Below are positions 7,962 through 36,309 of a DNA stretch of 64,000 nucleotides, piece by piece. The stretch spans positions 1 to 64,000 of the forward strand of contig JAPDHM010000002.1 of assembly GCA_030704425.1 (NCBI GenBank), in the 5' to 3' direction. The notes under the pieces were generated by a model. That model did no database searches. It saw only the letters and a program-made list of their open reading frames with translations, and had not been told where the DNA came from. The stretch's first letter is position 1. Each line of letters starts with the position of its first letter. The position numbers and the translations under genes were made by a program. The stretch comes from Rhodobacteraceae bacterium IMCC1909. Its GTDB lineage: Bacteria > Pseudomonadota > Alphaproteobacteria > Rhodobacterales > Rhodobacteraceae.

Positions 7962-8118
7962 GGGGTTACTGCGCCTGATCGCTACAGTTGAGCCGCAGGA
8001 CCACGGACCGGGGGCCCTTATCATAGGGCCCCGCGTCTCGGACCACGGGCCTTTAGTATTAGTCTTCTAAATTCATTCGGGGGCAGTTTTGTTTAGTAAC
8101 ACCACCTTTACTCACGCC
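7962..8118. repeat. GC-rich dispersed repeat, copy A
   Basis: About 155 bases, starting GGGGTTACTGCGCCTGATCG and running through GGGCCCCGCGTCTCGGACCA to the CACCTTTA segment, closely match 36038-36194 and more distantly 41145-41291. It is directly followed by an IS6-family terminal segment in this copy and in copy B. No protein or RNA family was recognised in it. Confidence 0.8.
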
Positions 8119-8232
8119 TCAATTTCAAGCTGAACCGCGCCTCTACTCTCGTTGAGCAGCGTCAATTATTGAGTATATAGATTTAGGCCGCACTAACAAT
8201 TCGATGCGAGTTCTCGTTCGTCTGACAACACC
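8119..8232 (+). mobile_element. IS6-family terminal remnant
   Basis: This segment matches, in inverse orientation, the transposase 3' end plus terminal repeat of the full IS6 copies at 52765 and 61877. It includes TTCAAGCTGAACCGC, the region corresponding to the last transposase codons and the terminal GTCTGACAACACC. The transposase body is missing and the sequence is clearly diverged, so this is an old remnant. Confidence 0.75.
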
Positions 8233-8613
8233 CTGGCGGCACTAAGGCTCTATAGGCGAGCAACGGTGCCCAACCTTGTAGTTCGATAATTTGGCCTAAC
8301 ATCGTTTCTGTCAAAGTCGCTCTGATTTGTTCGGCGCTAGCTTCGTCAAACAGATTATTCACTTCGGTTGGGTCTGATTGCAAATTATAAAATTCACCCC
8401 AGTTTTCACCCTGCCTGATCGACATGCGGTGACGATCAGTCACCACGGTTCGAACCCTTTGGAGTTTGTTAAAGCCAGTCATCAGCCGTTGACTGTCTTC
8501 TTCAACAATTATCGCGTCAACTGGAACCAGAAGCAAAAAGATCGCGCCCTTTCGGTCCGTTAAAGGCTGAATTCCAGCCCGCGCAAGAATCCTGGCAAAG
8601 ATATCTATTGAAA
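8233..8613 (-). pseudogene. C-terminal fragment of a sulfatase (duplicate of the gene at 34150)
   Basis: Read on the minus strand, this segment matches the last 110 or so codons of the sulfatase at 34150-35742: IIVEEDSQRLMTGFNKLQRV, RMSIRQGENWGEFYNLQSDP and TEVNNLFDEAS are nearly identical. Upstream, ARILARAGIQPL aligns with ATILGRAGIQPF, with a frame change between the two blocks near 8535. The stop codon TAA of the intact gene is TTA here, so the frame runs into the IS6 remnant. The N-terminal catalytic domain is absent. Confidence 0.85.
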
Positions 8614-8629
8614 ATAAGAATATAAAACT

Positions 8630-9832: not shown

Positions 9833-9849
9833 GATATTTAGATATCCAA

Positions 9850-11166
9850 TTAAAGCATCGAATTTGGTAAATAAAGTATAATTGAAGGAATAAACACTAA
9901 CAGTGCAAGACGAATAATATCAACAATCCAAAAAGGAGTTACCCCTTTGAAAATTGTTGCCGTTGATACATCCCCAATCACACCTTTAAGTACAAAAACA
10001 TTCAAGCCAACAGGTGGAGTGATGAGGCTTATTTCTGTTACAACAACAACGATTATACCAAACCAAATTGGATCAAAACCCAAACTTGTAACCAAAGGAA
10101 AGAAGATTGGCACTGTTAACAAAAGCATGGACAAGCTTTCAAACACACACCCTAAAACAAGGTAAATAACTAAAATCATTAACATAACAAGCATAGGAGA
10201 AAGTTCAGCTGAAGATACTAAAAACCGCAAAGCTTCGGGCAGACCAGCCATATTAACAAAATTGGAAAATATCCACGCACCTATTAGCACAGCAAACAGT
10301 GCAGCAGTTGTCTGAACTGTCTCTATCAAAACCTGTAGCGTTTTTGAAAAATTGAGCTTGCCGCGAGATACTGCAATTAAAAATGCTCCCGCAGCGCCCA
10401 TGCCTGCCGCTTCGGTTGGGGAAAAAGTAAGGTTGAGCGGCCAGATGTTAAGGACCCCATACAGCCCACCAATAACAATAAAAAATAATAGTAGAACAGC
10501 CCATACGCCACGCAACGCTTGAAGGCGGTCAACTAGGCTGCTGCGTTCTCCAGCTGGCCCAGCTTTGGGATTTCGGATAATCGTGTAGCGCACGGCAACT
10601 AGATACAAAACAACCCCAAGCAGTCCTGGTATTATCCCAGCAATAAACAACTTACCAATGCTTGTCTCAGTCAAAAGCCCATAAATAACCAGGATAACTG
10701 AGGGGGGGATCAGGATTCCTAAAGTTCCACCAGCAGCAATGGATGCAGTCGAGAGACTGTCATCATAATTGTATTTGCGCATTTGAGGCATTGCAACTTT
10801 TGACATAGTTGCTGCTGTCGCTAACGACGATCCGCAAATTGCAGAAAACCCAGCGCATGCCACAATGGTAGCCATTGCTAGCCCACCCCTTAGATGCCCT
10901 AGAAAGACGTAGGATACTTGATACAGCTCTTTCGATAGACCCCCTTTGTTCACAAAAAGCCCCATGAGTATGAAGAGTGGTACAACGGAAAGTCCATAAT
11001 CTTGTGATGTGTCAATGATTATTCTACCGACCATAGAGATTGATGCCCTAACTCCACGAATATCAGCGTAACCGGCAAAGCCAACCAGCCCCATCGCAAG
11101 GGCAATCGGCATACGCAAGAAAACTAAAAAAAGAACTACACCGAGTCCAACGATAGAGATGAGCAT
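9850..11166 (-). CDS. TRAP transporter large permease (DctM family)
   Basis: The 438-residue protein is a chain of about twelve hydrophobic segments with the DctM hallmarks PLFILMGLFVNKGGLS, CGSSLATAATMSKVAMPQM and GTLGILIPPSVILVIYG. It is the sodium-coupled membrane channel of a tripartite uptake system. Its start overlaps the stop of the small permease by one base. With the small permease and the periplasmic receptor (11794) it forms one complete TRAP system, located between a P450 and aromatic ring-cleavage genes; an aromatic or related acid is the likely cargo. Confidence 0.93.
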   Translation of the reverse strand: MLISIVGLGVVLFLVFLRMPIALAMGLVGFAGYADIRGVRASISMVGRIIIDTSQDYGLSVVPLFILMGLFVNKGGLSKELYQVSYVFLGHLRGGLAMATIVACAGFSAICGSSLATAATMSKVAMPQMRKYNYDDSLSTASIAAGGTLGILIPPSVILVIYGLLTETSIGKLFIAGIIPGLLGVVLYLVAVRYTIIRNPKAGPAGERSSLVDRLQALRGVWAVLLLFFIVIGGLYGVLNIWPLNLTFSPTEAAGMGAAGAFLIAVSRGKLNFSKTLQVLIETVQTTAALFAVLIGAWIFSNFVNMAGLPEALRFLVSSAELSPMLVMLMILVIYLVLGCVFESLSMLLLTVPIFFPLVTSLGFDPIWFGIIVVVVTEISLITPPVGLNVFVLKGVIGDVSTATIFKGVTPFWIVDIIRLALLVFIPSIILYLPNSML

Positions 11167-11711
11167 CAGACCGGACCTTTTACTGCGGATAAAATTAACA
11201 AAATTGCGCGAGCTAAGAACGTGAGGGCAGTTAGAAAAGTAAATACGGCAATAAACCAGCCGATATAATGCTGTGGGAGATTGAGATACTCTGTTACGTC
11301 GCCGAAACCTCTGGCGCGTTCAGCCAATTCCCAAACACGTTTAGCAGGCCAAATCAGGATAACCCCACAGGTCATATCAATTGCGATGTCACGAATTATG
11401 GCAAGCCTGCGAGAAAATAATGGGTCTAATAGGTCGACGACAATATTGTTTCCTTTCCAGCTTATAATAGGCAGCGACGAGAAAACAATAATCGCAATAA
11501 GCAACCGAGTAAGTTCGGTGGCTGATTCAATAGGATTACCAAATAAGCTGCGTAGTATGACGTCAGCAAAAGTCATAGTCATGAGTATGAAAAGGGCACT
11601 TGCAGCAAGCCATGTCGGCAGAACAGCTATATAGCGCCAAAACCCAGTCTGCCTAAAAGACATGTCCCAGGCGGCCTCTGACGATGGTTTTCTAACTTCT
11701 AGCTTATTCAT
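11166..11711 (-). CDS. TRAP transporter small permease (DctQ family)
   Basis: About 181 residues with four membrane segments (for example AVLPTWLAASALFILMTMTF and the central LLIAIIVFSSLPIISWKGNN), the topology of DctQ subunits. It bridges receptor and large permease. The start is set at ATG 11711 (MNKLEVRKPSSEA); an upstream in-frame ATG at 11744 would add eleven residues without family support. It is followed immediately by the large-permease gene with overlapping stop and start codons. Confidence 0.85.
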   Translation of the reverse strand: MNKLEVRKPSSEAAWDMSFRQTGFWRYIAVLPTWLAASALFILMTMTFADVILRSLFGNPIESATELTRLLIAIIVFSSLPIISWKGNNIVVDLLDPLFSRRLAIIRDIAIDMTCGVILIWPAKRVWELAERARGFGDVTEYLNLPQHYIGWFIAVFTFLTALTFLARAILLILSAVKGPV

Positions 11712-11793
11712 TTTAATGCATCCAATTTGTGTGATAAGGCCCAATAGTGGGCCTTATCAAGTAAGCCTTCATTAGATTGAAGATGCCGCCATA

Positions 11794-12807
11794 TTATTCA
11801 GCTGCCATTTGCTCTTTAATAAATGCGTGAGCTGCAGTTGCATCAACACCTTTTGCACTCACTTCTGCAATGACTTTTGTAATTAAAGGGCCAGTCATTG
11901 CTTGCCATTTAGTTGCATCCGCAGCCGAAGCTTCGGTCAAGTTATTGTCCGAATTTTCGTTTAGCGCTGCCATACCGGCTGTGTCGATCTTATCCCAAGC
12001 TTTACCGGCTGCGCGCGACAAGTTTTCTCCAAACACTTTGCTCAGAGCCATGCGGTCCACATCAGACAAATTGTCGAAGGTATCTTGGTTCATAATAACA
12101 GCGAAAGATCCACGATAAAAACCACCAGGTACTTGGTATGTATTCTTGGCTACTTCAAATAGTTTAAAGCTTTTTTTCGCCTCCATGGGCATCATAACTC
12201 CGTCAGCTGAGTTTGAAGCTAATGTTTCATAAACTTTTGGAGCAGGAACCCGGATACCTGTTGCGCCCAGTGCTGCACCAACATCGCCGGATACCCCTCC
12301 CCCGAGCCGCAGTTTCATGCCAGCTATGTCTTCCAAAGAAGATATTTGCGCATTGGAATGTAAAGCCCCTGGGCCATGGGTCATCATCGCCAATACTTTG
12401 ACGCCCTTATGTTCGCCTAACCCAGCAAAGAATTTATCGTAGGCGCGCCAACTTGCAACTGAAGCTGCTTCTGCATTGCCTTGGTAACCTGGCAGTTCGA
12501 TCATTTTTGTTGATACAAAACGGCCTGGAGAGTAACCGTGGAAAATCCATGTAATATCTGCTGCACCATCAAGAATTAGATCAAATTGTGCGGGTGGAGA
12601 ACCCAGCCCATACTTAATTTCGGCACTAACGCGGCCATTTGTTGCATCCTCCATTGCCTTGGTCAATTCTGGAAACATTATCGCATTCATGCCATGGGTG
12701 GGTGGTGCCCAAGATGAAATTGTGAGGGTGGTGTCGGCGGCATACGCGGCAATAGATGCTACAGAAAATGCGGCGGCGGCAATGCCCGTTTTAATTAAAT
12801 GGCTCAT
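11794..12807 (-). CDS. TRAP transporter substrate-binding protein (DctP family)
   Basis: The 337-residue protein starts with a Sec signal peptide (TGIAAAAFSVASIAAYAADT, cleavage probably after AYA) and continues as a DctP-type periplasmic receptor with SWAPPTHGMNAIMFPELTKA and a MKLRLGGGVSGDVGAALGAT region where the conserved arginine that grips a carboxylate is expected. A GGGAGA ribosome site precedes the start. First gene of the TRAP set, read in the order receptor, small permease, large permease, P450. The ligand cannot be read from the sequence. Confidence 0.92.
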   Translation of the reverse strand: MSHLIKTGIAAAAFSVASIAAYAADTTLTISSWAPPTHGMNAIMFPELTKAMEDATNGRVSAEIKYGLGSPPAQFDLILDGAADITWIFHGYSPGRFVSTKMIELPGYQGNAEAASVASWRAYDKFFAGLGEHKGVKVLAMMTHGPGALHSNAQISSLEDIAGMKLRLGGGVSGDVGAALGATGIRVPAPKVYETLASNSADGVMMPMEAKKSFKLFEVAKNTYQVPGGFYRGSFAVIMNQDTFDNLSDVDRMALSKVFGENLSRAAGKAWDKIDTAGMAALNENSDNNLTEASAADATKWQAMTGPLITKVIAEVSAKGVDATAAHAFIKEQMAAE

Positions 12808-12944: not shown

Positions 12945-13712
12945 TCAAAGTATTCTAGCAGAAATTTCAATAGCAGTTTGTTGCAATGCAGCTGCATACC
13001 TTTCGACGGCTCGCTCCATTTCCATTGCTTTAGTAACCCAGATAATTGACAGGCAACCGATAGCACGTTCATCAGAAATAATTGGTACTGAAAGGCTAGA
13101 AGTTTTAGGCCTAAACGTTTGCGGCCCACGAGTAGCAAATCCTTGTTTTAAATAAATATTAAGATTATTTTCGAGCCACTCCTCCTGTAAAAATGGTAAA
13201 TCTTCCACAACATTTTCTGCTCGGAGCAAATCAATTATTATTTCACGCTCCCGTCCCGCACAGACTGACAGATACGCTCGTCCAGATGAAGAGCGTAGCA
13301 TAGGTAAGGAATAGCCAATCATGCCTGGGTCAACCGATAGTGGACTACGGCTATGAGTGGATTCTTGAATTATCATATGCGCGTCTGCATAAGTGGAAAG
13401 ATCAACTGGCCATGCGTGCGCATCAGTAAATTTAACCAAACTTGGGGCGGCTACTTGGCAAAGCTGCGAACGTGTCGATGAGCTGTCCCCTAAGGTGGCC
13501 GCCAGCGGCGATAGACGCACACGAGAGTCGCTTCCAGAATAAAGAACATAACCGTCTTCTTCCAGTGTATTGAGTAGGCGATAAACTGTCGTACGAGGCA
13601 ACCCTAATTCAAGGGCTATCTCACCGACGCGGGCTGCGCCCACTCTGTTTAATAACCGCATAATATTTAGCCCACGTGAAAGTGCCCGCACGTTATCAGG
13701 ACCTGACGACAT
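12945..13712 (-). CDS. IclR family transcriptional regulator
   Basis: The 255-residue protein has an N-terminal winged helix (ALSRGLNIMRLLNRVGAARVGEIALELGLPRTTVYRLLNTL) and a C-terminal effector domain ending in VPIISDERAIGCLSIIW. It resembles MhpR, which senses phenylpropanoid-type aromatics, and lies between an aromatic-degradation cluster (FAH, MhpA-like, extradiol dioxygenase) and a TRAP system, all on the same strand. It probably responds to a pathway intermediate. The palindrome AGAACCGGTTCT upstream of the extradiol gene is a possible operator, unproven. Confidence 0.9.
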   Translation of the reverse strand: MSSGPDNVRALSRGLNIMRLLNRVGAARVGEIALELGLPRTTVYRLLNTLEEDGYVLYSGSDSRVRLSPLAATLGDSSSTRSQLCQVAAPSLVKFTDAHAWPVDLSTYADAHMIIQESTHSRSPLSVDPGMIGYSLPMLRSSSGRAYLSVCAGREREIIIDLLRAENVVEDLPFLQEEWLENNLNIYLKQGFATRGPQTFRPKTSSLSVPIISDERAIGCLSIIWVTKAMEMERAVERYAAALQQTAIEISARIL

Positions 13713-13762: not shown

Positions 13763-14743
13763 TCATCCCGCAACTATGGTTTGGTCAATAGCACCAAAAA
13801 TACTTTTTCCTTCACTGTTGAGCATTTCAAATCTAATGGTGTCCCCTGGATTCATGAATCGAGTGGTAGCCTTGCCATTCTGTATGGTCTCAATCATACG
13901 CTTTTCCGCCAAGCAGTTGGAACCCACTTCTTCGTTATTTTCATTACTAACCGTCCCCGAACCAATTATGGTACCGGCTGCCAGATTTCTGGTACGGGCT
14001 GCATGTGCTATTAAATCTGTGAACTCAAAGCTAAGGTCTTTGCCGGCATCTACTATCCCGAACTGATTGCCATTATAAGTCGTTATTAATGGTAAGTTAA
14101 TGCGGCCGCCGGTCCATGCTGCACCCAGCTCGTCGGGTGTAACGCAAACGGGTGAAAAGGCGCTGGCAGGTTTTGATTGAAAAAAGCCAAAACCTTTTAC
14201 TAATTCTGGGCGCATAATATTGCGCAGGCTGATATCATTACATAACATAATCAGCTTTATATGCGACTTGGCTTGCTCGGGAGAGCAACCCATGGGTACA
14301 TCATCTGTAATAACGGCTATTTCACCCTCAAAATCTAGGCCCCAGTCTTTCTCAACACACGGTATGGGATCAACTGGACCAAGAAACCCGTCGCTGCCTC
14401 CTTGATAAAGCATTGGGTCTGTCTCAGAGTTTTCAGGCATCTCAGCACCGCGGGCTTTGCGTACCAGCCGCATGTGGCTTAAATAAGCACTGCCGTCAGC
14501 CCATTGAAATGCGCGTGGTAAGGGAGAAGCCAAAGCTCTGGGGTCATATGGGATAGTTTCGACCTCAAAAGCCTCCATTTTATCATTAAGAGCCCGCAGC
14601 AAAGGCTCAGTGACCCTCCAGTCTTCGATAGCATCACGAACGCTTTTAACAACAGATGTTGCTAGAACCATGCGTGACAAATCTCGGGATACTACAACTG
14701 GCGTGCCATCACGGCCACCAATCTTCAAGGACGCAAGCTTCAT
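13763..14743 (-). CDS. Fumarylacetoacetate hydrolase family protein
   Basis: A 326-residue FAH-fold enzyme. The metal and substrate core is visible as DFEGEIAVITDDVPMG (metal-binding glutamates), LCNDISLRN and FFQSKPASAFSPV, with GTIIGSGTVSNENNEEVGSNCLAE near the end. FAH enzymes cleave carbon-carbon bonds in beta-diketo acids such as fumarylacetoacetate or fumarylpyruvate. It follows the MhpA-like hydroxylase and the extradiol dioxygenase in one operon, so it probably acts on their ring-cleavage product, though the nearby homogentisate dioxygenase offers fumarylacetoacetate (after isomerisation) as an alternative substrate. Confidence 0.88.
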   Translation of the reverse strand: MKLASLKIGGRDGTPVVVSRDLSRMVLATSVVKSVRDAIEDWRVTEPLLRALNDKMEAFEVETIPYDPRALASPLPRAFQWADGSAYLSHMRLVRKARGAEMPENSETDPMLYQGGSDGFLGPVDPIPCVEKDWGLDFEGEIAVITDDVPMGCSPEQAKSHIKLIMLCNDISLRNIMRPELVKGFGFFQSKPASAFSPVCVTPDELGAAWTGGRINLPLITTYNGNQFGIVDAGKDLSFEFTDLIAHAARTRNLAAGTIIGSGTVSNENNEEVGSNCLAEKRMIETIQNGKATTRFMNPGDTIRFEMLNSEGKSIFGAIDQTIVAG

Positions 14744-14769: not shown

Positions 14770-16257
14770 CTAGATTGGTGAAGGTAGGCCATTGACCGCC
14801 ATATCTACAATATCATTTTCAGAAATAGCGCTCCCCGCAATATATCTGTCAGGGCGTACTAATATTGCGTTTGTATTGAAACTATCCAAGGCTATGGCTA
14901 AATCGGGGTGCTCTTCAGCATCTAAAACGGGGGCTACCGGAGAAATCTCCTTATCCAGTGGATGGCGCAGAATTAAAACAGGACAGTAACCAACTTTATC
15001 ATCCAACCGCCGCCCGTCCCGAAGTATTGGTTGGCCAAACAAGTGACCGCAATGTGATCTATTGCCGCCAATCAATTTACCAAGGTCACTAACACCAAGT
15101 GGTGGCGTAATTGATGAAATACGTGCAGTGCCATCTGCGTTGTTTTCGGCCTGCGCTAGAGCAGTCCGACTATCAATTGTGTTAATCAGACCACCAAGCC
15201 GTATCGCCATTTCGATAAATGTGCGCACATGGGTGGAGCGTTCCTGCTGATAGCTATCTAAAATATCCTCATTTGCTGCCCCCTTAATACAGAGCGCCAG
15301 CTTCCACGCTAGGTTAGCAGCATCACGGATACCTGCACACATACCTTGCCCCATAAACGGAGGGGTCAGGTGGGCCGCATCACCCGCTATTAGTAAGCGA
15401 TCCTTACGCCAATTATTTGCAACGACAGATTGGAAGGTATACACAGCGGTCCGTTCCAATTCAGCGTCCTCGGCATTAATCCAAGGCGCGAGGAACTTCC
15501 AAATTGTGTTACTGCGGGTAACCTCCTCATGAGTTTCTCCCTCTAGCAAAGTGATTTCCCACCTCCGCCGTTTGGCTGGGTTGCGACAGTAAGTCATTGG
15601 ACGCACAGGATCACAGAATTGAATAGAATAATCGCCTAAATCAGGTCGCTCCCTTTTTAATAGCAAGTCCACAACAAGCCACCGCTCATTAAACCCCAAA
15701 TCATCCACATCAGATCCAATAGAGCTTCTTACTAAAGAGTTAGCACCATCACATCCCACTAAATATTTAGCACTCAGTGAATGCTCATGCCCATCGCTGA
15801 TATTGCGGCAAATGAATTTTACATTTTTAGTATACTGCTCAATGTTTACAACTTCGGTCCCGTTCAGAACTACTGCATTAGGGTAACCAGAAAGCTTAGC
15901 GCGCAATAGTTGTTCCAAATCTGGCTGGTGTAAGCGGTAACTGGCGTGCCATCCTTGAAGGCCTATTTCTTGTGGACGTGGCCACTCTAAGATCACGGAT
16001 TTTTTTTGATCTACGAAACGCATACCTGGATTTATCCGGACCTTTTTACTAAGTGGATTCGCGACACCAACCGTTTGAAAAATTCGCATAGTTTCATCAT
16101 CAAAATGTACCGCCCGTGGCAAGTGATACATCACTTCATTCCGCTCAATGACAACTACACTTAGGTTACACTGTGCAAGCAAATTTGCTAGAGTTGCACC
16201 AGTCGGCCCATAACCAACAATGGCGACATCAAAAAGCTGAGTAATGGCCTCATTCAT
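14770..16257 (-). CDS. FAD-dependent aromatic hydroxylase, MhpA-like
   Basis: The 495-residue flavoprotein monooxygenase has the dinucleotide-binding VGYGPTGATLANLLAQ at the N-terminus, the DG motif (GCDGANSLVRSSIG) and the FAD-ribityl motif GDAAHLTPPFMGQGMCAG. This is the 3-(3-hydroxyphenyl)propionate hydroxylase (MhpA) group, which hydroxylates phenolic rings with NAD(P)H and oxygen. Its start overlaps the stop of the extradiol dioxygenase gene (ATGA), so the two are translationally coupled: hydroxylation to a catechol, then ring opening. The exact phenolic substrate is not determined. Confidence 0.9.
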   Translation of the reverse strand: MNEAITQLFDVAIVGYGPTGATLANLLAQCNLSVVVIERNEVMYHLPRAVHFDDETMRIFQTVGVANPLSKKVRINPGMRFVDQKKSVILEWPRPQEIGLQGWHASYRLHQPDLEQLLRAKLSGYPNAVVLNGTEVVNIEQYTKNVKFICRNISDGHEHSLSAKYLVGCDGANSLVRSSIGSDVDDLGFNERWLVVDLLLKRERPDLGDYSIQFCDPVRPMTYCRNPAKRRRWEITLLEGETHEEVTRSNTIWKFLAPWINAEDAELERTAVYTFQSVVANNWRKDRLLIAGDAAHLTPPFMGQGMCAGIRDAANLAWKLALCIKGAANEDILDSYQQERSTHVRTFIEMAIRLGGLINTIDSRTALAQAENNADGTARISSITPPLGVSDLGKLIGGNRSHCGHLFGQPILRDGRRLDDKVGYCPVLILRHPLDKEISPVAPVLDAEEHPDLAIALDSFNTNAILVRPDRYIAGSAISENDIVDMAVNGLPSPI

Positions 16258-17228
16258 CTCTCACGTCCACGTAGTTCATAAAGCCACGGGCAATCCACCA
16301 TTGGTGGCGCACGCAATCCACCCGCAGCAGCCTTCAATCGCATATCAACAAAAGCCCTTCGCTCGTCTTCTGGCAAATAAAGTCTATCATGACCCCAGAA
16401 ACTAGGGCCCACTGTGGTTTCATGAGGCTCCCAAGTCACAGGATCTATCAACCTTCCGCCCCAACCGCTTTCAACAAAAAAACCTGACGGCGTATTGGCG
16501 TAAAAACTAGTTATATGGTCATTTGTATGACGACCCAGCGTGTAAGCGATGCCATCTTTTTGTTGACTTGCCAGGTCATAACCTTGCCCCATATCATCGA
16601 GGTTTTCATACTCCACCATGAAGTGGTGAAACCCGGAATTACCTGAGCCAACTATAGCAAAACTGTGATGCCGACCATTGACGTGAAAAAAGTAAAGAGG
16701 TATCGGATCAAGTCCATAATCACTGACGGCAAAACCTAATATATCGCAATAGAACGGCAAAAGAGCTGTTGCGTCTGGAACATGTAAAACTGCGTGCCCC
16801 ATCCCTAATGGGCCTGTTTTGAAACCGTCAATTGGACGTCCAGGAATGAAAGGTTCCTCTGCTTTTTGAGGGTTCCAAACTAGTTCAATTCGATTTCCGG
16901 CAGGATCACTGCACACAATTAAGTCTTCTACAAAGCGACGGTCAGCTAGCTCACTCCCCCCCTCTGTTACTTTATGTCCCGCATCATCTAATTTGGCAGC
17001 AAAATATTGGAGGTCAGATTTTTTTGATACTTCCCATCCGATAAAAGCCAACGTTTCACCAGGCTCATCAGATACAACCAAACGTTGTACTAGATCATCC
17101 ATGCGAAAAGAAAGCTGGCGTCCACCATGGTCAGCAAGATGCATGGCAAGAACCTTACCAGCAAAATATTTCCAATCATCCACTTTGTTAGACCTAACTC
17201 CAAGATAGCCCAAAGATTTAATCGGCAT
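16254..17228 (-). CDS. Extradiol (type I) ring-cleavage dioxygenase, VOC family
   Basis: The 324-residue protein has two vicinal-oxygen-chelate modules: an N-terminal non-catalytic half and a C-terminal half with iron ligands in GMGHAVLHV (His), the TLGRHTNDHITSFY segment (His) and FFVESGWGG (Glu). This is the layout of 2,3-dihydroxybiphenyl dioxygenase (BphC/HsaC-like), which opens a catechol ring next to the two hydroxyls. It is first in the operon with the MhpA-like hydroxylase and FAH enzyme. The natural catechol is unknown. Confidence 0.9.
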   Translation of the reverse strand: MPIKSLGYLGVRSNKVDDWKYFAGKVLAMHLADHGGRQLSFRMDDLVQRLVVSDEPGETLAFIGWEVSKKSDLQYFAAKLDDAGHKVTEGGSELADRRFVEDLIVCSDPAGNRIELVWNPQKAEEPFIPGRPIDGFKTGPLGMGHAVLHVPDATALLPFYCDILGFAVSDYGLDPIPLYFFHVNGRHHSFAIVGSGNSGFHHFMVEYENLDDMGQGYDLASQQKDGIAYTLGRHTNDHITSFYANTPSGFFVESGWGGRLIDPVTWEPHETTVGPSFWGHDRLYLPEDERRAFVDMRLKAAAGGLRAPPMVDCPWLYELRGRER

Positions 17229-22922: not shown

Positions 22923-22924
22923 GG

Positions 22925-23542: not shown

Positions 23543-23562
23543 GTTCGTACCCTACCAGTGGC

Positions 23563-25137: not shown

Positions 25138-25153
25138 AGATTTCGCAACCTTA

Positions 25154-26391: not shown

Positions 26392-27984
26392 TCAGTCAGC
26401 TGGATCATGCAGTGCCGCCATGAGGTAATCAAAGCACCTATGCAATTGCGCGGAGGTCTGTACGCTTGCTGCGACATAAAAGTCAGGACGAATGATCACA
26501 TATTGAACGGCGAGTTCGGCCATCCAACTTTTATAAAAGCCCTCTATGTCGTCGATATCAAATCCAGCTCCTGCGGGGCCGACCGACAAGATGCGGCCTT
26601 CCAATTTTTTAAATAACTCAATCTGCGGATCGCTCAACAGCGTTTTGGTGTCTGTGTTGGCACATAGAATAAACCAGCCTTGTCCGACGACCTGATCAAA
26701 TCGACCTTGTTTGCCACGATAGCCTACGCATCCTTGTGCCGAAATTTCACCAGAGCCGGGGGTGTTCTCGCACCACAGTCCAGGACCAAGTTTGACATGA
26801 TCACCCGTTATTGGGGCATAATCTCGAGCGATCAAATCCGCGATCATTTCTTTATCTCTTTGATCGGCCTGTTCGGGATCGGTTATGCAAATTATGTCGC
26901 CAAGTTGCTGGCTAAAGTCGATATAATGCTTAGCATGTGGTTTTCGCTCACTCTCATAGCTATCTAATGCAGCATCGGATAAGTGGCCTTGCAAAATTCC
27001 GTTCAACCGCCACCCCAGCGCCACTGCATCGCGCAAGCCTGCGCACATACCTTCTCCGGCGAAGGGCGGCATTAAATGAGCCGCATCTCCCGCAATCATT
27101 GACCGACCGAAGCGCCACTGCTCTGCCCAACGCGCTTGAAATCTGTAAACCGCACTACGTTCTAACTCTGCATTCTCGCGCGTCAGCCCCCAAGGCTTCA
27201 ACAGCTCCCACGCCGCTTCAGGCTTTGCAATTTCATTTGGATCTTCGTCAGGCAACACCATGAACTCCCAACGACGACGCCCAGGGCCTCCCGGAACAAG
27301 CGTTGTGGGACGTTTGGGATCACAGAGTTGCCACTGTGCAGGCGACATTTTGTAGTCAGCATGCGGGATCATATCGAGTATCAACCAATCGAAGAAATAC
27401 CCACGATCCATAATGGGGCTGCCAAGGGCCTCTCTGACAAAACTATTGGCCCCATCTGCACCAACCAAATATTGCGACCTCAGAGTGCATCGATTGCCGT
27501 CAGGACCGAAAATTTCTGGTGTTTGACGTAATTCCACTGCAACCCCGTTGTCACCATTCAGCAATTTGATGGCTTGCCAGCCTCGTAGGATGGTGATGCT
27601 TTCGCAGGCCTCGGCCATGGACATCAATCGCGCCTCAAACTCAGGCTGGTTGAACCAATAGGTCACATGCCAACCGCAGGGCGCAACGCTCTCCCAATCA
27701 ACGATTTGGAGGTCTTGGAGATCAGCATTTTTCCAATAATAAAGTTCCTGGTGATTTTCAAAGGCAGGATCAGAGTCACAATCAATACCTAAGCTCGCCA
27801 GTATGCGCGCAACCTCAGCGTCCATTGTCACCGCACGAGGCCGGTCATAGATGCTTTGCCAACGGTCAACCAAAACCACTTCGTGGCCTTTTTGCCCAAG
27901 CAATATAGCGAGTAATAGGCCAACCGGTCCTGCGCCAATTATGGTTACCTGATTGTCGATGTAACGCATGTGTTGATACTCCAA
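26392..27984 (-). CDS. FAD-dependent aromatic hydroxylase, MhpA-like, second copy
   Basis: The 530-residue flavoprotein monooxygenase shows IGAGPVGLLLAILLGQKGHE, the DG motif VGADGANSFVREALG and GDAAHLMPPFAGEGMCAGLR. It belongs to the same group as the protein at 14770 but is clearly divergent and has a longer C-terminal thioredoxin-like domain (FKKLEGRILSVGP...ALHDPAD). The start may be ATG 27984 or the internal ATG at 27969 (MRYIDNQVTI). It lies downstream of the TAXI-TRAP genes on the same strand, which suggests that the imported compound is hydroxylated directly. Confidence 0.88.
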   Translation of the reverse strand: MEYQHMRYIDNQVTIIGAGPVGLLLAILLGQKGHEVVLVDRWQSIYDRPRAVTMDAEVARILASLGIDCDSDPAFENHQELYYWKNADLQDLQIVDWESVAPCGWHVTYWFNQPEFEARLMSMAEACESITILRGWQAIKLLNGDNGVAVELRQTPEIFGPDGNRCTLRSQYLVGADGANSFVREALGSPIMDRGYFFDWLILDMIPHADYKMSPAQWQLCDPKRPTTLVPGGPGRRRWEFMVLPDEDPNEIAKPEAAWELLKPWGLTRENAELERSAVYRFQARWAEQWRFGRSMIAGDAAHLMPPFAGEGMCAGLRDAVALGWRLNGILQGHLSDAALDSYESERKPHAKHYIDFSQQLGDIICITDPEQADQRDKEMIADLIARDYAPITGDHVKLGPGLWCENTPGSGEISAQGCVGYRGKQGRFDQVVGQGWFILCANTDTKTLLSDPQIELFKKLEGRILSVGPAGAGFDIDDIEGFYKSWMAELAVQYVIIRPDFYVAASVQTSAQLHRCFDYLMAALHDPAD

Positions 27985-28045: not shown

Positions 28046-30415
28046 CTACTGCGTCAATTTACTTGAGTGGCGAAATCTGTGCAGCGCCAGCAAGATGATC
28101 GCTGCCACAATTGCACTACAAAACACCACTGGTGCCTTGAAGAGTAAGAACACAGCGATACCAAGGCGCAGCGATATTTCAAAAAACCCAATTGGGGACA
28201 TATCATGGCGGGCTAGGCAGCTTGATACCAGGTAAAGCGCAATTGCCAGTCTGAAGAGCAAGAGCGTTAAATTTTGTAAATCAATTGTGCTGCTATAGCC
28301 AGGTAAGAAAGATGTTTTGCCAATGCCTGCAATATCCGCACTGGCAAGCCGCGCCTCTTCAATCAGCAATATCTCAGGGTAAAACGCGAATACAAACGGG
28401 ATGGTAAAGATGACAATACCCGATTTTACGGCTGCAACGGCCGTACCCATTGGACCGGCCTTGGTAATTGTTGAAGCGGCGAAAGCTGCAAGAGCCACTG
28501 GTGGGGTGATTGCACTCGCAACGGCAAAATAGAAGATGAACATATGAGCAGTAAAAGTGCCAAGACCCAACCCAGCCAAAACAGGACCCATGAGCAACGC
28601 AACATTGATATAAGCTGGGACTGCTGGCATGCCCATTCCGAGCAAGACTGCAATCATCATCGTTAGCACTAAAGCCGTAAACTGAATCATAAACGGTCCA
28701 GTGCTGCCCAAGTTCAGCTCATTCAGCCAAGCGAGCACATCAAGAGATAGAAACACTGGGAGCCCTGTAAAATTCAGGCAAAAGTCAATGATCGAGACGG
28801 TCAAAAACATAAGGTAAAGCGTCGAAATGAGGACGCCAGCTCCGGACAGACCATCAACGATCTTTTTAGGACGTGCACGCACCTCTGGATCAAGAAGCAG
28901 CAAAAAGATTAGGAGCATGACCGCAAACCAACCCGCGCTTCCGGCGTCGCCTGCAGCGTTTTGGAGTAATTGTAAAATCCATGGCAGGCTTTGCACATCA
29001 CACCCATTTGCGGTGATGACCCGCTCAGCGCCCATGATGCCGCCCCAAAGACCGCAGCCAACTGAACCTTTGTCAGTGAGAAGCAAAAAAAGGATGAGCA
29101 CAATTGGTGCTAACACCATGATCAAATTAAGCGCATCTTGGAACTCAAGGCGCATTTCTTCGGTGATCATTCCAATAGCTTGGATGTTTTGTTTTCGAGA
29201 TTGGAAAACAACCGATAAGAACAAGCAAAAGAAGTAAGCCACGGCAGGAATGATCGCAGCCATGATGACACTTGCGTAGGGAACAGCGGTCAGTGCCGCT
29301 AAGACAAACGCTGCCACGCCCATTACTGGCGGCATAATAGAGCCACCCGAAGATGCAGCAGCCTCCACACCTCCAGCAAATGTTTTCGAAAAACCACGCT
29401 TCAGCATCATGGGAATAGTCAAAACACCTGTGGATAGAACGTTCACGATTGGCCCGCCAGAGATTGTTCCAAACATAGCGGACGAGACAACCGCTGCATG
29501 CGCCGGTCCGCCTCGTAAATTTCGTGTCAAACGAAAAGCAACTTTTATCAAAGAGCGCCCGCCAGCGGAAGCACCAAACAAAGACCCCAGAACAAGATAC
29601 GGGAAAATTGTGTTGAGAATAATATTCATAAACCGACCAAGCATTCCGGTCGAGTTGTTGACCAAGATGTCATGGATACGAGGTCGGCCATCGCTCAATA
29701 ATCGAGGCTCACCTGCAAGTTTGGTCACGAGGTATTTATTGAAATCCTCTGCGCCATAAAAATACCAGACAAGAACCGTTAAAATTGTATACGCAGCAAT
29801 GAGAAGCGCAACGATGACAAGTGGCAGACCCCAAACCTTTATATTATAGGCTAGAAAAACTGCGATCGCGATCCCAACGATCAAAACCAACCATCCACCG
29901 GTTGTATTAACACATTGAGGATCTTCAAAGGTTGTTGAGGGCTCCATGCCAAGCAATTCAGCCATCTCGTTTTCTGATTGGATGATTTCGGAAATCAACC
30001 GAGAACGATCTCCGGTGAATTGGTCGATAAGACAGATAGCCTCAATTTCAATGTAAAATGTTATGGAGATTACGACTGCCATCAGTGCTAGCGCGATGTC
30101 CATGAACAATCCAAACCGGCGTTTGAGTGGGGACCGATCCCTCCAGGAGCGCCACAAAGAATGCTTGAGAGCGACAATGATCATCATCAATGAGAAGAAA
30201 AATGGATAAAACCATTCGAACGGAAATCTGCGAAATGTCGCCCCTTCACGCCCGGTAATCTGTGCTACAAGATCATCGTAACCCGGAATGCCGGGCGTTG
30301 CATTAATCAATCCCAAGAGGACCATTACAATGGACAGGAAATACAAACATTTGATGCCTAGGCTTTTGGAAAGTTCTTCAGTCTGTATCGGCCCACTCAT
30401 GCAATAGCCTCTCAC
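28046..30415 (-). CDS. TAXI-type TRAP transporter fused permease (DctQM fusion)
   Basis: The 789-residue protein carries an N-terminal small-permease-like region followed by a long DctM-like channel: GASAGGRSLIKVAFRLTRN, AMFGTISGGPIVNVLSTGVL, EAAASSGGSIMPPVMGVAAF and later MGMPAVPAYINVALLMGP. Nearly twenty hydrophobic segments are visible. Such fused permeases work with TAXI-type receptors, here encoded at 30475, in sodium-coupled uptake. An extended periplasmic loop (residues about 140-160) and a second loop near residue 460 are present. Neighbouring hydroxylase and RutE-like genes suggest an aromatic or organic acid substrate. Confidence 0.92.
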   Translation of the reverse strand: MRGYCMSGPIQTEELSKSLGIKCLYFLSIVMVLLGLINATPGIPGYDDLVAQITGREGATFRRFPFEWFYPFFFSLMMIIVALKHSLWRSWRDRSPLKRRFGLFMDIALALMAVVISITFYIEIEAICLIDQFTGDRSRLISEIIQSENEMAELLGMEPSTTFEDPQCVNTTGGWLVLIVGIAIAVFLAYNIKVWGLPLVIVALLIAAYTILTVLVWYFYGAEDFNKYLVTKLAGEPRLLSDGRPRIHDILVNNSTGMLGRFMNIILNTIFPYLVLGSLFGASAGGRSLIKVAFRLTRNLRGGPAHAAVVSSAMFGTISGGPIVNVLSTGVLTIPMMLKRGFSKTFAGGVEAAASSGGSIMPPVMGVAAFVLAALTAVPYASVIMAAIIPAVAYFFCLFLSVVFQSRKQNIQAIGMITEEMRLEFQDALNLIMVLAPIVLILFLLLTDKGSVGCGLWGGIMGAERVITANGCDVQSLPWILQLLQNAAGDAGSAGWFAVMLLIFLLLLDPEVRARPKKIVDGLSGAGVLISTLYLMFLTVSIIDFCLNFTGLPVFLSLDVLAWLNELNLGSTGPFMIQFTALVLTMMIAVLLGMGMPAVPAYINVALLMGPVLAGLGLGTFTAHMFIFYFAVASAITPPVALAAFAASTITKAGPMGTAVAAVKSGIVIFTIPFVFAFYPEILLIEEARLASADIAGIGKTSFLPGYSSTIDLQNLTLLLFRLAIALYLVSSCLARHDMSPIGFFEISLRLGIAVFLLFKAPVVFCSAIVAAIILLALHRFRHSSKLTQ

Positions 30416-30474
30416 TGTATATTTTTAGATAGAGAGCGAGCACCCCAACTAAAGCGGGGTGCCCGTACCAAGTT

Positions 30475-31521
30475 TTATTTTGCGCAAGTTGGAATCGTGT
30501 AACCCGCAGCTTCCCAAGCGGCCACAGCGCCAGGATGATATTTAATTGGGTTCAGACCACACATATCAGTTAGAGCAATATCGGTTTCACCATGCCATGA
30601 ATTGGACATGAACGGAGCCTTTGCTTTGAAGGTGTCCAAATTGCTCAAAAAGGCTTCCGTCAACCCTTTAGCTGTCTCAAAATCCATTGAGACATTGACT
30701 ATCTCACCGCCAACTGTTCCGGGACAACGGTATAGCTCGTCCTCCGAAACAACGGTAACACCTTTTGCGTAGCCCATTTCGGATATCGGGAGTGTCACAG
30801 CAACAGTGCCGGGTTTTTTTGTTACTTTTTGGAACGTCTCACTCTCGAATTTTGTCTTCGGCATAGACCATATGGTCATATCGCCAGACGAGAGCGATGG
30901 AATGATCCTGCTATCAGGAAAACTCATCGGGAGAACGAAGGCATCCGCTGAGCCGTCCTTTATTGTTGCGACTGCTTGACCCCAGTTCACTTGAATAGCG
31001 TTATAATCGGATTCTTCTTCCAGGCCGGTGGCAAGACGCACGAGCAAACGGGCATTGGTCAGTGCTGCGCCGCGCGGTGGACCATTGAACAAAGTTGAGC
31101 CCTTGATACTATCATACCCCGAAAAATTCGAACTATCAAAGGCATATAGACCTTGGCATGCTATGCGATACGTGTATAGCACGGCCACTTTGCTCCCAAG
31201 TTCAGCCCCTTTTTCCTTGCCCAGTTTTGCATAGGGCCCGGCTGCTCTAGACATCAGAAATGGCAGAACAAATGGCGCGGCTGCAATATCCGTTTTCCCC
31301 TCAGCGACGTTCTGCACTGAATTGGTTAAAGTTTGTCCAGCGCTCACCTGAATATTTGCAACATTGCTCGCTGCGGCGACCTCCGAAAGTGCGATGACAG
31401 AAATGCCTGGCGTGCTACCAGGCGAGGCCGTCTCAGCTGTAAGGTTGGCCTGTGCGTGCGCAATAGGCGAAGATAATAGCGCTGCGACTGCAATGGCTGC
31501 AGTTTGACGTTTTTTAAACAT
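30475..31521 (-). CDS. TAXI family TRAP transporter solute-binding protein
   Basis: About 348 residues after a signal peptide (TAAIAVAALLSSPIAHAQAN); the mature part has TASPGSTPGISVIALSEVAA and the TAXI-type SVQNVAEGKTDIAAAPF. The start is placed at ATG 31521, preceded by GGGAG, rather than at upstream ATGs that would put the operator-like site (31651) inside the gene. It pairs with the fused permease at 28046. The ligand is unknown. Confidence 0.85.
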   Translation of the reverse strand: MFKKRQTAAIAVAALLSSPIAHAQANLTAETASPGSTPGISVIALSEVAAASNVANIQVSAGQTLTNSVQNVAEGKTDIAAAPFVLPFLMSRAAGPYAKLGKEKGAELGSKVAVLYTYRIACQGLYAFDSSNFSGYDSIKGSTLFNGPPRGAALTNARLLVRLATGLEEESDYNAIQVNWGQAVATIKDGSADAFVLPMSFPDSRIIPSLSSGDMTIWSMPKTKFESETFQKVTKKPGTVAVTLPISEMGYAKGVTVVSEDELYRCPGTVGGEIVNVSMDFETAKGLTEAFLSNLDTFKAKAPFMSNSWHGETDIALTDMCGLNPIKYHPGAVAAWEAAGYTIPTCAK

Positions 31522-31650
31522 AGTTCGCTCCCAACTGCCCGCTAGATGTGTTTCCATTATGTTTTGGGCGAATAGCATAACGGTTTGCTCTGTTTTGTGG
31601 GAAAGCCTCAACAAGACAGATGACCTAAAACAATCACTTTTATGCAATTT

Positions 31651-31676
31651 TGTCCAATAAAAACGATTTTTGTTTG
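31651..31676. promoter_or_regulatory. Operator-like site, copy 2
   Basis: TGTCCAATAAAAACGATTTTTG repeats the block found at 25861 (TGTCCAATAAAATCGATTTTAT) with a few changes. It lies between the TAXI-TRAP receptor gene (minus, start 31521) and the RutE-like gene at 31801 (plus), suitable for control of one or both. Confidence 0.6.
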
Positions 31677-31800
31677 AAATGTAGTTTACAGTTGCTACAA
31701 AAAGCTGCGGAAGCAAAAGTTAACACTTACTTCGATCGTTGATAATCAACTGCTGAAGCGACATAATAATTGTTTAATAACAGTAAATAAAAGGTAACCA

Positions 31801-32385: not shown

Positions 32386-32483
32386 GACCCGTCTCCTAAT
32401 TTTGGATCGATAGAAAATATGGGTTCAAACAGAAAAGTATAAAACGACTTGCTGTTTTCATATGCCAACTCGAAAGGTGAGAA

Positions 32484-34103: not shown

Positions 34104-34149
34104 CAACATGTAAAGACCTTTAAAAATTTGTGGGAATTGGGCGTGACAG

Positions 34150-35742
34150 ATGGCTTCAAAAAACGACAAACGCGGAAATAAACCAAACTTTCTGTTCATA
34201 ATAACGGATCAACATCGTGCCGATCATCTGGGGTGTTATGGGAATAGCGTTGTAAAAACACCAAACATAGATTCAATTGCGGCAAGAGGGACGCGCTGGA
34301 ACAAGTTCTATGTGGCCAATCCAATTTGCATGCCCAATCGCGCCTCGATCATGACAGGACGTATGTGCTCGGTGCATGGTGCGCGGCACAACGGTATTCC
34401 TCTTTCAAAGGATCATACCACCTTTGTCGAACTTTTGCGCGATGCCGGTTATGCGACCGGCCTCATTGGAAAATCGCATTTACAAAGCTTTACAGGGCTA
34501 CCCGCAACCAATAAATTTAAACAGAAAAAGGGATTAAGCAGCCCATCGCGCGAACTGCGCGATGCTTATAAGAATAACCGACATTCCCCAGACTATGACC
34601 TTGAGGACAGTACGCGCTGGCACACGCCATTGGCGGATCGTGTGGATGGCGACTTTTATGGCTTCCAACACGTCGAAATAGCAGCCGGTCATGCGGACCA
34701 AGCCTCAGGTGACTATCTCTTATGGGCGCGGAAACAGCGCGAAGATTTTGATAGCCTAACTGGCTATGAAAATGCGCTTCCCGACGAAAGCATTGATGCC
34801 CCACAGGCCTGGCGAACCGCCGTTCCAGAAGAGCTTTACTCAACAAACTGGATTGCTGACCGATCGGTTCACTGGATCGATCAGCGAACAAATGATGAAA
34901 CACCTTTTTTTCTGCAGATATCTTTCCCAGATCCCCACCATCCCTTTACTCCACCGGGGAAATATTGGGATATGTATGACCCACTAGATGTCGCCTTGCC
35001 TAAATCTTTTGGGAAAGGGGATCTGCCCCCCATCAAAGCCATGCGAGAAGCGATGGAAAAAGGCACGGACCCGAGGGATAATCAAAGTCCCTTTACCGTA
35101 ACCGGAGACGAAGCCCGCGCCATAATTGCGCTGACGTATGGCATGATCACGATGATTGATGACGCAATCGGTAGGATCCTGAAGCAATTGGAAGCTTCCG
35201 GGCTGGCAGACGATACTATTGTAATTTTCACCACAGATCATGGCGATTACATGGGCGATCACAGCCTCATGCTTAAGTTACTGTTGCATTACCAGGGCAT
35301 TATTAGAACGCCCTTCATTTGGTACGATCCCAAGCGACCGACAGACGGGCGAGCCATAGATGACTTGGCCTCTTCCATAGACATTTCTGCCACGATCCTC
35401 GGACGGGCTGGCATTCAGCCCTTTAATGGGCTGCAAGGGCGCGATCTTTTTGCGTCTGATCCAGTAAATGCAATAATTGTTGAAGAAGACAGTCAACGGC
35501 CGATGACTGGCTTTGATAAGCCACAAAGGGTTCGAACCGTGGTGACTGATCGATATCGCATGTCGATCAGACAGGGCGAAAACTGGGGAGAACTCTACGA
35601 TCTGAAATCGGACCCAACCGAAGTGAATAATCTGTTTGAAGACGCCAGTGCTGTACCAATCAGAGCTACTTTGACTGAAACAATGTTGCGCCGGATGATC
35701 GAATTGCAAGATCGGGCGCCGTTACCCGCCTATCGAGCCTAA
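34150..35742 (+). CDS. Sulfatase (alkaline-phosphatase superfamily), Cys type, second in tandem
   Basis: A 530-residue sulfatase with ITDQHRADHLGCYGNSVVKT at the start and a formylglycine site C60-M-P-N-R64, followed by ASIMTGRM. The asparagine in place of the usual Ser/Ala is tolerated in the loose C-x-P-x-R pattern. FTTDHGDYMGDHSLMLK is the second metal motif. The C-terminal 110 codons are duplicated at 8233-8613 on the opposite strand. The gene ends 35 bases before an IS6-end-bounded element. Substrate undetermined. Confidence 0.88.
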   Translation: MASKNDKRGNKPNFLFIITDQHRADHLGCYGNSVVKTPNIDSIAARGTRWNKFYVANPICMPNRASIMTGRMCSVHGARHNGIPLSKDHTTFVELLRDAGYATGLIGKSHLQSFTGLPATNKFKQKKGLSSPSRELRDAYKNNRHSPDYDLEDSTRWHTPLADRVDGDFYGFQHVEIAAGHADQASGDYLLWARKQREDFDSLTGYENALPDESIDAPQAWRTAVPEELYSTNWIADRSVHWIDQRTNDETPFFLQISFPDPHHPFTPPGKYWDMYDPLDVALPKSFGKGDLPPIKAMREAMEKGTDPRDNQSPFTVTGDEARAIIALTYGMITMIDDAIGRILKQLEASGLADDTIVIFTTDHGDYMGDHSLMLKLLLHYQGIIRTPFIWYDPKRPTDGRAIDDLASSIDISATILGRAGIQPFNGLQGRDLFASDPVNAIIVEEDSQRPMTGFDKPQRVRTVVTDRYRMSIRQGENWGELYDLKSDPTEVNNLFEDASAVPIRATLTETMLRRMIELQDRAPLPAYRA

Positions 35743-35777
35743 GCCCTGCCGGGGTAGATCACTATTGCAGTTATGAG

Positions 35778-36309
35778 GGTACTGTCAGATTAAACTCGGT
35801 TGAAGCGAGCAGTGTGTATTTGTAGAATCCGCAAATGACAAAACACTCCCCATTCAGTTACATGAAACCTGGCCCGGGGTTCCTCGACCATCCCGCCTAG
35901 GCCCGAGGACTGGGAACCAAGAGCCGAAGGCCCCATCGGACAATAGAGCGCGCTCCTGCGTTTCTGCCTTCAGTGTTGCATGAGCCAAATCCGCGTTGGT
36001 TAGTTTTGCTCGGGCCGCGGTCCGTGGATCAACGGCAAGGGTTACTGTGCCTGATCGCTGCAGTTGAGACGTAGGACGCAGGACCGCCCCGTCCCTATCC
36101 CAGGGCCCCGCGTCTCGGACCACGGGCCTTTAGTATTAGCGTTGTAGATCCATTCAGGGGCGGTTTTGTTTGGTAACGCCACCTTTATTCACGCATCAAT
36201 TTTAAGCTGAACCGCGTTGCCGCTCTTACTGAGTGGCGCCAACTATTGAGCGCATAGATTCAGGCTGCGCTAGTAATCCGATGCGAGTTCTCATTCGTCT
36301 GGCAGCACC
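35778..36309 (+). mobile_element. IS6-end-bounded element without transposase
   Basis: The left boundary GGTACTGTCAGAT and the right boundary GTCTGGCAGCACC match the two terminal repeats of the full IS6 copies. The left 100 bases match the transposase 5' region in reverse of 59885-59985 up to the start codon; the right 115 bases match the IS 3' end. The middle is GC-rich DNA instead of a transposase gene, including repeat copy B. It is either a decayed IS with foreign DNA inside or a nonautonomous derivative. Length about 532 bases. Confidence 0.7.
36038..36194. repeat. GC-rich dispersed repeat, copy B
   Basis: Matches 7962-8118 (copy A), with nearly identical blocks such as AGGGCCCCGCGTCTCGGACC and GGGCCTTTAGTATTAG, and leads into the same IS6-end segment. 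The two copies have the same orientation and flank the catabolic block. No coding family was recognised in it. Confidence 0.8.

Follow-up and report, generated by a model that had tools for sequence, protein, structure and literature searches.

An aromatic-catabolism gene block in Planktomarina as the probable cargo of a decayed tRNA-Arg island array

Genes and repeats at the locus

The window analysed here is a stretch of 64,000 nucleotides (C2:1-64000) of a Planktomarina genome; the genus is part of the RCA cluster, which ranks as a major lineage of Roseobacter in oceans from temperate to polar (PMC10675870). Its catabolic block (Table 1) has the content that the first-pass annotation gave it: a cytochrome P450, two DctPQM TRAP transporters and one of the TAXI type, two MhpA-like hydroxylases, ring-cleavage dioxygenases (HmgA, one extradiol and one intradiol enzyme), IclR and GntR regulators and two sulfatases are all present. 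The TAXI-type TRAP protein (28046..31716) scores just under the TIGR02123 cut-off and under that of TIGR02122. A sulfatase end had been described as duplicated in the block just inward of the left-hand repeat; the duplicate exists, yet as an inverted and diverged scrap (8230-8612, minus strand, with 82% identity to 35373-35755).

Table 1. Features in the window, by position
Feature	Position	Strand	Remarks
Rarm, ends at tRNA core	7661..7842	+	match to L183 and L186
Left tRNA-Arg(ACG) 3'-end core	7843..7856	+	exact 14-mer
Y attachment arm	7857..7959	+	twin CTACCCACA repeats at 7910-7930
GC-rich unit G, left copy	7960..8095	+	136 bases; 39 copies classified, 38 aligned
IS6 right-end remnant	8095..8232	+	75% to IS positions 680-817
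Sulfatase C-terminal scrap	8230..8612	-	inverted relative to 34150-35742; 82% over 383 bases
Cytochrome P450	8630..9832	-	PF00067, 5.4e-37
TRAP transporter 1 (DctM, DctQ, DctP)	9850..12807	-	
IclR-family regulator	12945..13712	-	
FAA-hydrolase family protein	13763..14743	-	PF01557; under NCBIfam equivalog cut-offs
MhpA-like FAD hydroxylase 1	14770..16257	-	NF004829 over cut-off
BphC/HsaC-like extradiol dioxygenase	16254..17228	-	under equivalog cut-offs
Homogentisate 1,2-dioxygenase HmgA	17374..18726	-	TIGR01015 over cut-off
GntR-family regulator	18814..19476	-	
HMGL-like / isopropylmalate-homocitrate-synthase-like protein	19486..20697	-	under NCBIfam cut-offs
Intradiol (catechol 1,2-type) dioxygenase	20697..21596	-	under NCBIfam cut-offs
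TRAP transporter 2	21615..24651	-	
MhpA-like FAD hydroxylase 2	26392..27984	-	NF004829 over cut-off
TAXI-type TRAP, fused permease and binding protein	28046..31716	-	Pfam DctM and NMT1_3
Two sulfatases	32484-34103, 34150-35742	+	PF00884
Miniature IS6 without transposase, 532 bases	35778..36309	+	both IS6 ends present; left end 35778-35875, X 35876-36035, G 36036-36172, right end 36175-36309
tRNA-Ser(GGA) 3'-end core	40440..40453	+	exact, without tRNA gene
int-end arm	41498..41639	+	integrase itself missing
Right tRNA-Arg(ACG) core	41640..41653	+	exact; orientation as left core
Stretch like the sequence directly after intact tRNA-Arg(ACG) at C2:88874	41654..41760	+	95-96% identical
Complete IS6-family copy, 817 bases	52765..53581	-	235-aa transposase ORF

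The annotation had placed two same-orientation copies of about 270 bases at the block's edges. Both exist, on one strand, at 7960-8237 and 36036-36314, and they share 81% identity, with an ungapped core at 82% (8016-8237 versus 36093-36314) and a longest exact common run of 38 nt. Each does contain an IS6 end (8095-8232 and 36175-36309), matching the last ~135-138 bases of the 817-base IS6 copy at 52765-53581, whose transposase ORF matches DDE_Tnp_IS240. The copies belong to two different longer units: the left one is made up of the Y arm, the 136-base unit G and an IS6 right end, while the right one is the terminal part of the 532-base miniature IS6. A 531-base query (35800-36330, the right-hand copy) gave at least 52 matches in the genome, a lower bound because scoring covered 40 of the 103 first-look candidates, and at least 12 of the 52 listed matches, the right-hand copy itself counted, span G as well as the IS6 end. 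The 270-base copies are no matched IS6 pair but two among many members of a repeat family dispersed over the genome.

The miniature IS6 has both IS ends, no transposase (no ORF of at least 120 aa within 35778-36309) and several copies, with relatives at ~79% over nearly its whole length in G000 (C1:31460-31983) and over its whole length in G011 (C1:1308574-1309103). In its two ends, its lack of such an ORF and its full-length recurrence in G011 it resembles the IS6-family MITEs, for which PMC7986276, in the part drawn on here, gives lengths of 227 and 336 bp in two cases. It differs from those in its 532 bases with a ~300-base non-IS middle (X and G), in that G is also found downstream of tRNA genes, and in the absence of an 8-base target duplication at 35778/36309 (GTTATGAG versus CTCGCCAT, read from the sequence), because of which it is called MITE-like here. 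Age or rearrangement could account for the missing duplication.

tRNA ends and attachment arms

Three exact 14-base tRNA 3' ends lie within the window without a tRNA gene. The match of the left tRNA-Arg core to the tRNA reaches, by eye, 17 nt (7840-7856); the one intact tRNA-Arg(ACG) gene seen stands at C2:88874-88950, on the opposite strand. Allowing one mismatch, 13 cores (those of the tRNAs of the loci examined, not of all tRNAs) gave 4 matches, against none in 18 and one in 2 of 20 shuffled-core sets. Across 20 genomes of the genus the exact tRNA-Arg core has 13 matches and its reversed control none, a comparison that ignores the tRNA genes themselves: 7 of the 13 are tRNA-Arg genes, and the 6 others include the two of the window and the G014 copy of the left one. 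With up to two mismatches the tRNA-Arg core is found three times in the window versus a mean of 0.87, three being reached in 4 of 100 shuffles, a count that weakly exceeds chance. tRNA 3' ends without tRNA genes therefore recur above chance, as in an additive flexible genomic island (fGI).

On contig C2 of the sister species G001 an intact tRNA-Arg(ACG) is immediately followed by an arm to which Y is 97% identical. Y is also found after tRNA-Ser genes, and it may run into an integrase start (ATGAAACATCAG...), a candidate reading taken from the sequence. On the other side, 41498-41653 is 94% identical to a stretch in G001 (C1), 88% in G008 (C12) and 84% in G015 (C475), and in the latter two species the int-end arm adjoins intact P4-type integrase genes (Arm-DNA-bind_3, Phage_int_M and Phage_integrase). 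Direct tRNA 3'-end repeats stand at both edges (7843-7856 and 41640-41653), with Y and int-end as attachment arms assigned to an integrase system by sequence likeness only. The tRNA-Arg 3'-end copies, and not the 270-base repeats, are the better-supported borders of the block.

Rarm matches the locus L183 twice at 77% (7680-7832) and L186 at 69% (7661-7856), next to tRNA-Ser-type ends in these loci; it is a conserved end that belongs to a different type of island. A MAG contig from a separate assembly has the left junction again, at 99.6% identity.

Origin of the catabolic block

In G001 the cargo is 90-92% identical, has different edges and is inverted over a 10.2-kb half, ~15.1 kb (18762-33890) being collinear at 90%; the edges of the inversion carry an incomplete IS6 copy and a short remnant resembling IS6, the latter missed by the IS6 BLAST. 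Pieces of the cargo with different joins are found, on short draft contigs, in G003, G004, G015 and G016. The comparison with relatives thus lends no backing to block edges at the 270-base copies. None of nine tRNA-Arg-core loci joins the two flanks (empty-site search). Since the G001 cargo stands directly beside an intact tRNA-Ser(TGA)-Y-G-IS6 end and the present one between tRNA-Arg(ACG) 3'-end copies, and since its pieces are rejoined in other species, the earlier suggestion of a mobile or formerly mobile catabolic cargo is supported.

The reading that I favour, with a probability of roughly 0.7, is that the block goes back to a tandem tRNA-Arg island array, now decayed, whose old cargo it forms and which later underwent rearrangement. 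P4-type tyrosine integrases would have built a tandem (additive) array at the tRNA-Arg(ACG) attachment site, the best-fitting unit running from the core at 7843 to the core ending at 41653 (33.8 kb) in the order core, Y arm, cargo, int-end arm, core. This unit is a remnant, its integrase gene being gone, and IS6 elements with their miniature derivative would have rearranged the cargo after the array was built. The sequences show the paired cores, the matching arms and the intact integrases beside the int-end arm in two other species; they also show that G001 has the cargo at a different tRNA site and that its pieces are joined differently elsewhere. I infer that one integrase event delivered the entire 33.8 kb and that IS6 was the agent of the rearrangement.

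PF00589 has no match in the window; of its 31 matches in the genome, the one at C2:87660 is closest to the tRNA-Arg gene. For want of an integrase gene the unit is filed as a remnant only. A search of the genome with the G008 integrase protein gave no match, an empty output being uninformative for the method used. Against a single island, the tRNA-Ser(GGA) core at 40440 and the miniature IS6 at 35778 lie inside 7843-41653, where an X/G-like stretch was also seen near 41087-41280, by eye and not by BLAST; with such layers the interval may not be a single insertion. Also against an island, what lies to the left of the left core is another island end, the tRNA body being absent. The opposite strand of the intact tRNA-Arg(ACG) gene, the nine loci without an empty site and the weak two-mismatch count weigh on the same side. 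Base composition, tried as an island mark, does not single out the interval, since 7857-41639 has 46.6% G+C and the window 46.7% (in 16 further stretches of G000 the values lie between 43.9 and 55.8%).

A rather unlikely alternative is that the cargo was assembled in place through many separate events on a small scale (insertions, inversions, deletions) for which IS6 and its miniature were responsible, with no island-sized transfer and with tRNA ends that belong to unrelated neighbouring insertions. The inverted sulfatase scrap, the different joins in the four species and the IS6 pieces at the G001 inversion edges fit such a piecemeal history, but at the two tRNA-Arg cores both kinds of arm belonging to a single attachment system stand in the correct order, and the ~15.1 kb have a collinear counterpart in G001. 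The IS6 translocatable unit (or pseudo-compound transposon) first proposed, in which 28 kb moved as a circle via the 270-base copies, is very improbable and was rejected as the leading mechanism: same-strand copies do flank the genes, complete IS6 copies exist nearby and 38 nt of exact identity could permit some homologous recombination, yet the near-identical IS copies with transposase that it requires are replaced by 81%-identical members of a large family, both devoid of transposase, the left one with a single IS end, the right-hand element lacking the target duplication, and the G001 cargo has its edges elsewhere and an inverted half. IS26-type translocatable units (PMC7986276, in the part drawn on) likewise have directly oriented IS6-related sequence around their cargo, whereas here an intact IS is absent at both edges. 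Repeat pairs flanking genes are best compared with the whole genome before being named transposon ends.

Read as a decayed tRNA-Arg island array, the locus resembles additive fGIs such as the one at tRNA-Lys in 'Ca. Methylopumilus' (PMC10872708): the last bases of tRNA genes recur and mark accreted metabolic cargo, and there is variability between strains. It differs from the fGI, as far as described in the part of that paper drawn on, in that several tRNAs are used (Arg, Ser and Thr seen), many units begin with a noncoding head that is conserved (arm and G, followed by an IS6 end or Z), and debris of IS6 is frequent. tRNA-end arrays are thus indicated as entry ports for Planktomarina catabolic genes, and exact attachment arms and cores are now available for testing. 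Tycheposons, whose original paper is said to deal with Prochlorococcus, invite a further comparison. Those of Methylophilaceae (PMC10872708, same part) share with the present unit a tRNA border, metabolic cargo and a marine bacterial host, and differ from it in the tyrosine recombinase, absent here according to the PF00589 search of the window. In the literature covered, outside of which most subscription papers fall, no paper was found on insertion sequences of Planktomarina, nor on its genomic islands and tRNA; the main text of PMC10675870 has no mention of 'genomic island', 'transpos', 'integrase', 'aromatic' or 'homogentisate', and uses 'mobile' once, of elements near the proteorhodopsin gene.

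The GC-rich unit G

G is present in 2 of 198 sampled genomes of the family, both of this genus, and in none of the 196 from other genera. An RNA-family origin of the repeat was discarded, with no Rfam match at gathering score over the window (a sub-threshold SCARNA20 match, E 0.56, lies at 35878-35945). The G consensus alone folds at -43 kcal/mol; RNAalifold on 38 copies gives just -2.8 kcal/mol, and conserved pairing in G is therefore unsupported. As to a known phage or plasmid element, the 27-base G core and a 22-base arm pattern have no exact matches in viral contigs, 7838-8240 has no match in plasmids and 35770-36320 none in phages.

All four pairings of the heads Y and X with the right partners IS6 end and Z exist, also within this genome. 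One G copy, in G002, is a clear cross-species chimera, its left part being 99% like a G000 copy and its right part 100% like a G011 copy; G joins left heads and right cargo that are interchangeable. That it is a genuine recombination joint, tRNA-linked head and cargo being exchanged through its conserved core, I regard as unlikely; if true, G would act rather as a cassette site does, the attachment head staying fixed while the cargo is exchanged between species.

A catabolic cargo between two tRNA-Arg ends

The aromatic-catabolism block at 7962-36309 is best read as the cargo of a decayed tandem tRNA-Arg(ACG) island array. On its left, a 17-base match to the 3' end of tRNA-Arg(ACG), recognised by eye at 7840-7856, directly precedes an attachment arm, Y, which is 97% identical to the arm following the intact tRNA-Arg(ACG) of the Planktomarina relative G001. 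Y begins at tRNA 3' ends, namely those of tRNA-Ser(TGA), tRNA-Ser(GGA) and tRNA-Arg(ACG), varying by species, and weaker matches (71 and 79%) follow tRNA-Ser(CGA). Its twin CTACCCACA repeats are found again beside integrase genes in the relatives G008, G015 and G001; the first two integrases are intact (408 and 396 aa, respectively, with Arm-DNA-bind_3, Phage_int_M and Phage_integrase), and the putative integrase frame of G001 is either fragmented or truncated where its contig stops. On the right, the window holds the arm which elsewhere lies between integrase and tRNA core (the int-end arm), with a second exact tRNA-Arg core right behind it; the core adjoining this arm is of tRNA-Arg type in G008 and G001, and in G015 it resembles, by eye, the end of tRNA-Ser(TGA). 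Given the paired cores and the two arms, 7843-41653 therefore reads core, Y arm, cargo, int-end arm, core. By sequence likeness, the unit has the form of an island whose integrase has been lost; at the expected integrase place, 41400-41504 matches a G008 contig about 4 kb from the int-end. The sequence on the far side of the right core shares 95-96% identity with what follows the intact tRNA-Arg gene on the window's own contig (C2:88874).

P4-type integrases integrate circular DNA into the 3' end of a tRNA gene, restoring that end; later insertions use the copied end, and units therefore pile up. The catabolic cargo would have entered such a tRNA-end array. There, IS6 elements and their miniature form may have inserted and recombined with one another, turning segments around, contributing to the loss of the integrase and leaving the sulfatase scrap. 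The cores, the arms, the integrases elsewhere, and the sites and joins differing between species are directly observed; I infer that the whole 33.8 kb arrived in one step and that IS6 had a role in its rearrangement, the main rival being a merely piecemeal build-up of the cargo.

Features of the window bearing on the block
Feature	Position	Remarks
Left-hand direct copy	7857-7959; 7960-8095; 8095-8232	Y arm; G; IS6 right end
Miniature element	35778-36309	532 bases: IS6 left end, X, G, IS6 right end; no transposase
Int-end arm	41498-41639	between integrase and tRNA core elsewhere
Second exact tRNA-Arg core	41640-41653	directly after int-end arm
Complete IS6 copy	52765-53581	817 bases; used to define IS6 ends
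Another complete IS6 copy	61877-62693	shorter ORF, 176 aa

The direct copies and the GC-rich unit

The first-pass annotation had placed direct copies of a GC-rich part joined to an IS6 part at both edges of the block; their existence and make-up are borne out, and so is its list of catabolic genes. The copies are 81% identical, with a longest exact common run of 38 nt. Sequence from the right-hand copy has at least 52 matches in the source genome (3.27 Mb, 9 contigs), 12 of those listed, its own place included, covering both parts. The right-hand copy is the terminal part of the miniature element, which has two 79% identical relatives, a nearly full-length one at C1:31460-31983 of the same genome and a full-length one in G011; compared with the full IS6 copy, the left-hand one is missing the left IS end. 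The sulfatase end said to be duplicated just inside the left copy is indeed present; it is inverted and shares 82% identity with its source or a paralogue. Further sulfatase genes lie beyond the block (45194-46840 and 48838-50109).

The GC-rich unit, G (136 bases), behaves as a module. Among 39 copies classified from the loci fetched, leaving out partial or strongly diverged ones (e.g. L024, L049, L050, L154), 17 have Y on the left, 11 have an alternative, X, 8 have a tRNA-Thr or tRNA-Phe spacer and 3 have no recognised left neighbour; on the right stands an IS6 end (28), an alternative, Z (7), or nothing recognised (4). Y-IS, Y-Z, X-IS and X-Z are each present, within the source genome too. 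At C4:433k, the relative G002 is 99.1% identical to C1:632k of the source genome over the left 110 bases and 99% over G bases 1-100, and 100% identical to G011 over the remainder of G plus 300 bases beyond it; over 1187 bases, G002 (L049 3284-4720) and G011 (C1:2865k, L163) are 99.9% identical. This stretch was recently exchanged between species, the edge of the exchange lying within G. The best-conserved 28 columns of G average 96%, versus 87% overall (38-copy alignment); the exchange thus ran through that conserved part, by either homologous or site-specific recombination. By eye, the shared stretch contains an oxidoreductase-like reading frame, and the heads differ (Y versus X). G was detected (E <= 0.001) in two of 198 sampled family genomes, namely the sample's two members of this genus.

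A second GC-rich family, armH, occurs at 40513-40612, 47540-47620 and 52505-52740; a number of its members either join an IS6 right end, each at roughly one and the same IS position, or come after tRNA-type cores (window 52375-52740, C2:166.6k, G001 C1).

The cargo in related genomes

In G001, contig C7 carries 8610-18760 inverted (92%) and 18762-33890 direct (90%); the second sulfatase has no match within C7:1-60000, and only 17 bases separate the end of the first from the IS6 end in an IS6end-G-Y-tRNA-Ser(TGA) unit. At the edges of the inverted part lie a partial IS6 copy (C7:4825-5274, 75%) and a small IS6-like remnant (C7:15504-15761), the latter not recovered by IS6 BLAST. C7:2181-3369 is made up of roughly 100-base tandem repeats, most of them about 95-96% identical.

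Four further relatives are represented by short draft contigs, which therefore speak for the joins seen, not for absence of the remaining cargo: in G003, 17308 runs straight into 14852 (97 and 85%), with 32257-34394 elsewhere; G004 has 9839-16294 as three pieces (84%), in which the P450 finds no match; G015 follows 8613-11401 (91%) with other sequence; and in G016, 15329-17317 adjoins a P450 in inverted orientation. A 9.96-kb contig of G014 matches 7388-17347 at 99.6% and is probably a stray contig of the source species, other listed matches of G014 to the block, of any length, being 69-79%; as it spans the left junction, that junction is no assembly slip. With four candidates per genome scored, at least 45 of the 61 genomes of the first comparison match some of 17300-37200, many with single genes only (e.g. 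hmgA) or repeat copies.

tRNA ends without tRNA genes

Several further tRNA ends unaccompanied by tRNA genes lie within the first 184 kb of C2: tRNA-Ser(GGA) at 40440, six tRNA-Thr cores at 128-167 kb, one tRNA-Ser(TGA) and one tRNA-Met. The exact tRNA-Thr core occurs 13 times in the source genome; among eight examined, one is in a tRNA gene and seven have no tRNA there. Across 20 genomes of the genus, this core has 38 matches (tRNA genes included) versus 1 for the reversed control, and the tRNA-Arg core 13 versus 0, seven of the 13 being tRNA-Arg genes and six not. G011 has a second tRNA-Arg core 83.5 kb from the intact gene, followed, by eye, by similar sequence. These recurring ends look like tandem island arrays.

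The tRNA-Thr(TGT) 3' ends in C2:124000-184000, five of the six on one strand, possibly form a tandem tRNA-Thr array. At C1:272000-291000 of the source genome (L183), a tRNA-Ser(TGA) gene and a 393-aa integrase frame are accompanied by a tRNA-Ser end 9 kb away, then Y-G-Z, in what looks like an island still with its integrase.

At 2854-4234, a phosphoglucomutase/phosphomannomutase is divided between two frames that overlap, one with domains I-II and the other with III-IV, likely by a frameshift. Positions 1-768, at the left contig end, are a repeat found at seven other places of the source genome with 100% identity over at least 764 bases; the contig therefore probably ends at an insertion sequence.
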